Assembly: GCF_041146795.1 (NCBI RefSeq)
Contig: NC_135174.1
Coordinates: forward strand, 21,228,878-21,292,877
DNA length: 64,000 nucleotides
Direction: 5' to 3'
From: Maylandia zebra
Lineage: Eukaryota; Chordata; Actinopteri; Cichliformes; Cichlidae
Shown: positions 58,801-60,302 of the stretch, in pieces
Layout: each line of letters starts with the position of its first letter
How positions within the stretch are numbered: the first letter of the stretch is position 1
The notes under the pieces: generated by a model
The model's database searches: none
Told to the model about the DNA's origin: nothing
What the model saw: only the letters and a program-made list of their open reading frames with translations
Made by a program: the position numbers and the translations under genes

Positions 58801-60302
58801 ACTTTGCTGGTGTAGATGATGATATTAATATCTGCTCTCTATCTCTTATATATCCTTAATTCAGTTAAATGCTTGCATGGTATTTCCCCAGGAAATTCTG
58901 CCAGTGTGTTATTGTAGTTAATAGATTTGTTCAGCACAAACCTGGCAAGTACAGGAGGTGCAGCTGTCAACCTCCCAGTCCTCCCCCTGCTCGTACACTC
59001 GTCCATCCTGCACGCACCACGCCTCACTGTCTCTGTCAAGATCATTGTCACTGCTGTCACCATCACCACCTCTGCGGCTGCTTCTGATGCTGCTGCTGAT
59101 GCCACTGCCGTTGCCATTACCATTGCCACTGCCGCTGCTGTTGCCACTGCCATTGCTGCGGTCACGGCCGTGGCTGTTGCTGCTGCTGTTGCCGTTCCCG
59201 TTGCTGTTGCCATATCCTCTGCCACTGCCGTTGCTGTGGCCACGGCCGTGGCTGCTGCTGCTGCTGCCGTTGCCGTTCCCATTGTCATTGCCCCTGCCAT
59301 TGCCGTTGCTGTGGCCATGGCCGTGGCTGCTGCTGCTGCTGCTGTTGCCGTTCCCATTGCCTCTCCCATGGCCTTTCCCTTTGCCACTGCTGGTACCACT
59401 GCCATGTCTGTTACTGAGTTCATCCAAAGATATCCGTATCTCTTCATTTTCTTTGGACTGAAAATACTAAAATTAGCTAAATACATTTTTCAAATAAGAA
59501 AGTATTATTGTGTATTTATATTGAATGAGACCAGCCAAACTACTGTGGGCCATATCTGTGGGGAGATTTCCTCTTGGTTTTTTTTTTTTTTTTCCCCCAG
59601 AGGCATTTGCCACAGACCACAGTACTTCCTGACAGAAAATCCTTTATTTGTGCCATTTGCACTGGAAAAAGAATTACTCTCAGAATTTAAATTCAGTCAA
59701 CTTTTCTGTGATGACACAGAATAAAAAGTGTATTACAACCTTGGTAAACACATAGTTATTGAAAATGGACTATTACTGGTTTAAATAATCTAAAAATAAT
59801 CTAAAAAAAAAGATTTAAAAATGTTCATGTTTAAAGTTACTTTTACCTTAAAAATGACACAACATTTTAACCTGTTTGCTAAAAAATATTTAAATTCTTG
59901 CTCATGCTGCTATAAAATAATGTACCATCAGGCAATAAGAAACACAATTTTAACAAATACCATGATAAATGTGCATGCTTTTATGCATCTTACTACTCTA
60001 TCCAAGTCTTCGAGCAGGTTGTTGGTCACAACACGTAGGCCATGGATCTCAGTGAGCAAGCCAAACAGGTCCTCACACGGATGAAGACAGATTTGCGATG
60101 ACAAGTTGCTGACCTTTGCGCCATCCACACCTGTGGAGGAGGCACGAGTATGTGTGGGCTTTTCAAGATTTAGATATGATTCTGCTTTAATGATAAAGAA
60201 ACAGGCGGAGCAACTGTACTGATGCATATGTGTGGTACCTGCACACACTCCTGCTGCATAGAGGAATATCAAAAGCTGAAGGAGACCCCTCAGATAACCC
60301 AT
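46861..60302 (-). CDS. Thrombospondin-1/2-like protein lacking the TSPN domain
   Basis: A secreted, probably trimeric matrix glycoprotein of the THBS1/THBS2 group. The 20 coding exons, in reading order, are 60239-60302, 59994-60130, 58942-59457, 58236-58329, 57950-58114, 57533-57709, 57274-57447, 56834-56964, 56020-56154, 55719-55937, 55505-55612, 55251-55410, 54867-54985, 53669-53903, 52921-53148, 52702-52832, 52449-52589, 52170-52267, 49288-49427 and 46861-46868. Every phase closes: 1059 residues. Order: signal peptide (1-21), coiled coil with interchain cysteines Cys36/Cys40, a Gly/Asn/Ser/His insert (about 84-207), VWC (about 212-270), three TSR repeats (271-442; WSPWSEW, WSPWSAC), three EGF domains, calcium-binding type 3 repeats and the C-terminal globe ending RYECRDN. 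Odd points: no TSPN domain, a GC donor after 56020, no RGD in the type 3 repeats, and KVRA where THBS1 has KRFK. THBS1-like and THBS2-like features are mixed, so no symbol is given. Confidence 0.9.
47218..47266. repeat. Two overlapping perfect hairpins
   Basis: The first hairpin has 13-bp arms (CCTTAAAGGTGGT and its complement) around a 7-nt loop, 47219-47251. The second, AAGGTGTA-CAA-TACACCTT at 47248-47266, shares its left end with the first. The site is in the last intron of the thrombospondin gene, outside the Tc1 element. Confidence 0.7.
47492..48571 (+). mobile_element. Decayed Tc1-type transposon (+ strand)
   Basis: The left end CACTCACTGCTTTGTTAG, then ACACCTGGTCAATTGCTTG, and the right end GTACCTAATGAACTGACCAG are the termini of a common fish Tc1 family. 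The coding part begins [16 protein letters not shown], then [14 protein letters not shown], the DNA-binding region, and soon breaks up by frameshifts and stops. TA precedes the left end. It lies in the last intron of the thrombospondin gene, opposite in orientation. Confidence 0.75.
49440..50970. other. Thrombospondin intron, no other feature
   Basis: Part of the intron between the coding exons 52170-52267 and 49288-49427. An open frame of 137 codons at 49716-50129 resembles no known protein and lacks supporting signals. Confidence 0.55.
50980..51450 (+). mobile_element. Tc1 transposase 3' fragment
   Basis: The translation includes [20 protein letters not shown], then [14 protein letters not shown], the C-terminal third of a Tc1 transposase with damage at the catalytic Glu region (NLIDMLW where NPIEMLW is expected). 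Upstream remnants give SSGGVMI in the same direction. There are no clear terminal repeats. Confidence 0.7.
53910..54860. other. Thrombospondin intron, no other feature
   Basis: AT-rich intron between coding exons 54867-54985 and 53669-53903. Nothing else is recognised. Confidence 0.6.
59085..59400 (-). repeat. Coding minisatellite of about 75-bp period in the thrombospondin
   Basis: Copies of a unit containing GGCCACGGCCGTGGCTGC recur near 59159, 59238 and 59312, giving about three to four units of about 75-78 bp. Read on the minus strand they encode [12 protein letters not shown] and [15 protein letters not shown] segments without stops. Unit length is divisible by three, so copy-number change would keep the frame. 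The array is inside coding exon 3 (58942-59457), between the coiled coil and the VWC domain. Confidence 0.85.

Follow-up and report, generated by a model that had tools for sequence, protein, structure and literature searches.

What has become of the N-terminal head of a thrombospondin gene whose signal-peptide exon is followed almost at once by its coiled-coil exon? The question is raised by a 64-kb stretch of contig C8 of the Maylandia zebra assembly (hereafter, the window: the whole stretch of DNA that was analysed), which carries a thrombospondin gene on its minus strand. The N-terminal globular domain (TSPN) is usual in TSP-1 and TSP-2 and absent from COMP, and membership of the superfamily does not need it. 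In our judgement, the best explanation of the locus, with a probability of about 85%, is a headless second copy of thbs2 that arose by a deletion of TSPN which preserved the reading frame. The product of thbs2, thrombospondin-2, is a well-studied protein secreted into the matrix.

The gene was modelled with 20 coding exons running from 60302 to 46861 (Table 1), the first 19 of which (60302 to 49288) give 1057 codons with an intact frame and no stop. With VWC and three TSP type 1 repeats (TSRs) beside the coiled coil, it belongs to subgroup A; its architecture is not that of subgroup B, which has neither VWC nor TSRs. Pfam recognizes in the protein VWC (2.2e–13), EGF, three stretches of TSP_1, seven of TSP_3 and TSP_C (E 6.4e–93), and among solved structures its best relatives are two of human thrombospondin-2, 1yo8 (1060 bits) and 2rhp. 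The assembly holds four subgroup-A genes, on contigs C8 (the window gene), C13, C15 and C19. The signal-peptide exon and the coiled-coil exon, their joining in phase 1 and the trimerising Cys-x3-Cys are all present as the preliminary description of this DNA had claimed. The first of these exons contributes 21 residues of coding sequence and one base (60239–60302), and a phase-1 end is also found in the signal exons of C15 and C19, where the script required this phase, and of C13, where it was read by eye, as was an upstream non-coding exon of the C13 gene. The probable last coding exon has the best-scoring acceptor in a scan of 46.4–49.2 kb for a short phase-1 end. The window gene (56019–56020) shares with the C15 gene (17468850) a GC donor after the second EGF exon, where C13 has GT.

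Table 1. Features of the thrombospondin gene in the window (positions are those of the window; a slash marks the splice point)
Feature	Position	Strand	Remarks
Probable end of 5' untranslated exon	60439..60520	-	donor CAG/GTATGC at 60438, score 8.3
Signal-peptide exon, ATG at 60302, phase-1 end	60239..60304	-	acceptor score 8.9
108-nt intron, frame open throughout	60131..60238	-	donor 3.5, acceptor 60130 6.5
Coiled-coil exon, Cys36-x3-Cys40	59994..60130	-	tblastn match to human THBS2 264–297
Exon 3: coiled-coil end, 131-residue linker (about 59020–59412), first VWC half	58942..59457	-	
VWC, second half	58236..58329	-	
Three TSP type 1 repeats: exons 57950–58114, 57533–57709, 57274–57447	57274..58114	-	Pfam TSP_1, 3 stretches
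Three EGF-like exons: 56834–56964, 56020–56154, 55719–55937	55719..56964	-	
Type 3 repeat exons: 55505–55612, 55251–55410, 54867–54985, 53669–53903, 52921–53148	52921..55612	-	Pfam TSP_3, 7 stretches
C-terminal lectin-like domain exons: 52702–52832, 52449–52589, 52170–52267, 49288–49427	49288..52832	-	Pfam TSP_C
Probable last coding exon, ...YECRDN-stop	46861..46868	-	acceptor score 14.3

The absence of TSPN, the central claim of the preliminary description, is borne out by several searches. Human THBS1 and THBS2, compared with the window by tblastn, matched all parts of the gene except TSPN. A six-frame domain search had been suggested for the region around the first exons; we extended it to the whole 64-kb window with a profile built from five TSPN sequences, and its best TSPN match had an i-E of 3.1. 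As a positive control, TSPN was recovered at 8e–68 or better in all three paralogous genes by profiles from which the target had been removed, and the C13 TSPN with 30, 50 or 60% of its residues randomly replaced was recovered in 10 of 10 trials each, with a profile that included C13 and with random replacement as a crude proxy for real divergence. Searches of the whole genome at E<=10 gave nine matches for human THBS1 TSPN and seven for C13 TSPN, none of them on C8; the matches were the C13, C15 and C19 genes and weak ones elsewhere on C13, on C11 and on C1 (best 0.036). The 962-Mb assembly thus shows TSPN of the subgroup-A type at three loci, on C13, C15 and C19, with no additional copy on any of 63 contigs. 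Pfam gave nothing useful on the first exons of the window gene, and it should be noted that alone it is a poor test for TSPN, as the domain of C13 reaches just Laminin_G_3 at 0.0089, under the cut-off. The gene is probably a thbs2 duplicate without head exons, its remainder readable in frame and probably encoding a headless protein.

The structure of the relatives suggests how the head could be lost without damage to the rest. TSPN had been described as one large exon in THBS1 and THBS2, which does not hold for C13, C15 and C19: here it occupies two exons, of about 554–560 nt (phase 1 to 0) and of 76–85 nt (phase 0 to 1). These phases were imposed in the model, upon which consensus-like donors and acceptors were found in three of three relatives. 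When the phases were left free in a first pass, TSPN-A of C13 and C15 and TSPN-B of C19 again ended in these phases, and TSPN-A of C19 and TSPN-B of C13 and C15 ended elsewhere, at poorer donors. The automatic models leave doubt about the 5' end of the coiled-coil exon in C15 and C19, and they divide one C19 exon artificially; joins shorter than 40 nt were excluded from the splice-site reference. Since the pair of TSPN exons is entered and left in phase 1, the frame survives removal of both. From signal exon to coiled-coil exon the distance is about 3.3 kb in C13 versus 108 nt in the window gene. We propose that a duplication, inferred to be that of the teleost genome, gave two thbs2 copies, and that a deletion in one of them would have taken all that lay between the signal-peptide and the coiled-coil exons, including the two TSPN exons, a stretch of ∼3.3 kb as judged by the C13 copy.

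It is more difficult to define the N-terminal junction of the product. The short intron proposed earlier stands as regards its exons and phase, but the intron itself is insecure: its donor at 60238 (CAG/GTACCA) has a score of 3.5, whereas 70 reference donors have 8.0 as their median and about one in 70 is equally low, its acceptor at 60130 lies at the 19th percentile, and an open frame runs from 60308 to 59928, through the whole 108-nt stretch. Signal-exon donors are strong in C15 (11.6) and C19 (10.9). The same headless gene might then have another N-terminus, in which the 108 nt are retained, or 57 nt are spliced to a rival acceptor 51 nt upstream (60181), with up to 36 extra residues on the mature protein, two extra cysteines among them. 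Otherwise, the signal peptide might come from another first exon, with ATG 60432 and donor 60335 (scoring 5.9–6.4). The rival acceptor outscores that at 60130 (8.2, 34th percentile, versus 6.5) and makes an exon of 188 nt, near the 200 nt of the C13 coiled-coil exon, but the remaining 57-nt intron would be shorter than the shortest modelled ones (80 nt in the relatives, 82 nt in the window gene). In addition, the start at 60302 has a canonical signal peptide in its exon and is backed by the acceptor before the ATG and by the donor of the upstream untranslated exon. On balance we consider such another N-terminus possible but rather unlikely, and all three readings of the 108-nt stretch, as well as the alternative first exon, are without TSPN. 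If the 108 nt are spliced out, as we prefer, the remnant intron left by the deletion would have been too short (57 nt) to splice from the old acceptor at 60181, and the acceptor at 60130, inside the old coiled-coil exon, would be used now. Such a shift from 60181 to 60130 after the deletion would be likely.

Which gene was duplicated is indicated by comparison with the relatives. TSPN of C15 and C19 is 56% and 53% identical to that of human THBS1, while TSPN of C13 is 62% identical to that of human THBS2, and C13 is an ordinary thbs2 that retains its head. Over the region that begins with VWC and extends to the C terminus, the window protein shares 72% of residues with C13, 68% with human THBS2, 66% with each of human THBS1, C15 and C19, and 57% with COMP, the lowest of the six; it is closest to C13 in five of five domain blocks compared. 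The best tree places the window gene and C13 together within THBS2 with weak values (aLRT/UFBoot 69/68), and three rival placements are not rejected by the AU test (p 0.44, 0.12 and 0.24). The neighbours are more telling. A kcnk1-like gene lies downstream of the window gene on the minus strand and a psme4-like gene upstream on the plus strand, which we take from their sequences to be KCNK1 and PSME4. Direct reading of the 10–13 kb flanks of C13 thbs2 revealed no genes beside it. Further out, it lies between relatives of both neighbours, kcnk1-like (21200622, minus, 55%, second best of nine matches) and psme4-like (21339384, plus, 66%, one of two matches), which are ordered and oriented like those of the window, and because of this we regard the window gene as the second thbs2 copy. 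The C8 and C13 genes would thus be the thbs2 pair of a duplicated block, as indicated by the flanking genes and weakly by the tree, and the block probably stems from the teleost genome duplication. The assignment to a THBS1/2 type made in the preliminary description is therefore kept as regards subgroup A and narrowed to THBS2-like, by the C13 block-mate and, weakly, by the tree. In the available text of McKenzie et al. 2006 (PMC1464143), KCNK1 adjoins TSP-2 in two pufferfish and in chicken, and zebrafish has two TSP-2 genes, on chromosomes 12 and 13, the former of which was set aside for lack of ESTs.

The AU test also allows the window gene to stand outside the pair of C13 and human THBS2, or outside THBS1 and THBS2 together, as would be expected of an older third subgroup-A lineage that was lost in tetrapods and is not a fish-specific duplicate. 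Such an origin seems improbable, given that the kcnk1-like and psme4-like flanks are each common to C13 and that all five domain blocks compared have their top identity there.

Apart from the head, the window protein departs from its relatives in several ways. All other domains had been called intact, and this is right for the folds and for the cysteines, as 64 of the 64 common to the other five proteins are kept, but not for some motifs, for the length of EGF2, which is 6 residues shorter, or for the region between coiled coil and VWC, where a linker of 131 residues is present. The type 3 RGD of C13, C15 and C19 reads SGD, while KGD and the CD47-type RFYVVMWK are kept, and in the third TSR CSETCN replaces CSxTCG, with the loss of one O-fucose motif. 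Exon 3 has 516 nt versus 141, 126 and 120 nt in C13, C15 and C19. Its linker is composed largely of Gly (37), Ser (36) and Asn (22), also with His/Arg, comes partly from a 75-bp imperfect repeat (59142–59361) and holds seven N-glycosylation sequons, with six in the rest of the protein. An intron hidden within the linker was considered and rejected: the best in-frame internal splice pair sums to 1.8, and the linker was therefore taken as coding. Separately, a 112-nt intron in the C-terminal domain (52590–52701) is absent from C13, C15 and C19 and is a candidate intron gain; in the subgroup-B loci L003 and L006 a break falls at another residue.

The window protein has also changed fast. It differs at 58 of 528 sites that are invariant in the other five proteins, each of which differs at 6–20. 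Relative-rate counts (Tajima) for the window gene and C13 are 126:28, 93:35 and 102:36 with three outgroups, versus 28:47 and 29:30 in the C15/C19 control, and the branch of the window gene has a length of 0.39, that of C13 of 0.09. By codon position, differences between the window gene and C13 amount to 0.21, 0.17 and 0.54 (841 codons). These values fit a fast-evolving yet constrained protein, as far as substitution patterns can tell, though the accelerated rate could also mean relaxed constraint, including a recent relaxation. A decaying pseudogene would likewise have a long branch, and loss of the RGD and O-fucose motifs, expansion of a low-complexity linker and a weak donor may be read in the same way, as may the zebrafish TSP-2 gene without an EST in the available text of McKenzie et al. 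(PMC1464143), a possible orthologue of the window gene. Against decay speak the 1057 codons free of stops and frameshifts, the full set of conserved cysteines and the strong third-position bias of the substitutions, and we give this reading little credence.

Even less probable is that TSPN exons exist and were lost or misplaced in assembly: near-identical copies on C1 and C11 (see below) might reflect an assembly error elsewhere, but we rejected such a loss here, as the window contains no N, no contig holds a further TSPN, the join of signal and coiled-coil exons reads through in frame, and psme4-like coding begins within about 2.6 kb upstream, which leaves little room.

For a headless second thbs2 copy, the product should be a secreted trimer, disulphide-linked via the coiled coil, on which the VWC, TSR, EGF, calcium-binding type 3 and lectin-like modules should be carried by a flexible Gly/Ser/Asn tether. 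The head of TSP1 and TSP2 binds heparan sulphate, LRP1/calreticulin and several integrins. The window product is predicted to be without this heparin-, LRP1- and integrin-binding head, and by analogy weaker cell-surface retention and endocytosis are likely, with activity shifted to the remaining modules. With THBS2 of C13 and human it shares VWC, three TSRs, three EGF-like exons, type 3 repeats, the C-terminal domain, the Cys-x3-Cys coiled coil, exon phases and flanking genes; it differs in the absence of TSPN, the added linker and the added intron in the C-terminal domain, SGD for RGD and faster evolution. Proteolysis of TSP1 and TSP2, for example cleavage by ADAMTS1, releases forms lacking the N-terminal domain, which likewise consist of C-terminal modules without the head. 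In these forms, however, the coiled coil is cut off too, whereas the window gene keeps it and does not encode a head at all.

The N-terminal globular domain is also missing in TSP-5/COMP and, in the available text of PMC1464143, in fish TSP-4b. COMP, in contrast to the window gene, belongs to subgroup B, has no VWC or TSRs, carries an extra EGF and forms a pentamer; because the window gene is of subgroup A, its headless state appears to be separate in origin. In the same text (McKenzie 2006, PMC1464143) a missing amino-terminal domain is reported only among subgroup-B sequences, and it is subgroup B that was examined for it. Our search of the available literature turned up no vertebrate thrombospondin of subgroup A that lacks TSPN; the window gene may be annotated somewhere as thrombospondin-2-like.

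We lean, by a small margin of belief, towards a broader view: that a dedicated headless subgroup-A thrombospondin evolved in a fish lineage, paralleling COMP, through frame-neutral removal of TSPN and growth of a sequon-rich tether between trimer stalk and VWC, by which C-terminal signalling modules were uncoupled from heparan-sulphate and integrin capture. Activities of TSP1 and TSP2 have been assigned to head or C-terminal modules mostly with recombinant pieces. If the proposal is true, a natural headless trimer beside an intact thbs2 would be a ready experiment on head function. Headless thrombospondins would then have originated a second time, independently of COMP/TSP-5, and the gene would clearly illustrate duplicate divergence through loss of a phase-symmetric exon pair.

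Some other features were met in the course of the analysis. Two 3-kb stretches of C1 that lie ∼0.7 Mb apart match stretches of C11 at 99.9%, with 4 and 3 mismatches, at about 40.1–40.8 Mb of C1 and about 36.7–37.4 Mb of C11 (loci L003 and L004, L016 and L015); these near-identical copies reflect either a large duplication of recent date or one introduced falsely in assembly. On C9, series of TSP type 1-like matches with identical scores, ∼158 kb apart, are seen at about 3.34–3.36 and 3.50–3.53 Mb, which suggests a local duplication. Within the window, exons at about 31.1–36.7 kb on the plus strand presumably belong to an ENTPD1-type ecto-nucleotidase, which they resemble. Open frames at 28199–28954 (minus) and 51164–51400 (plus) are presumably pieces of Tc1/mariner transposase, and the latter sits within the thrombospondin gene, in its last long intron.
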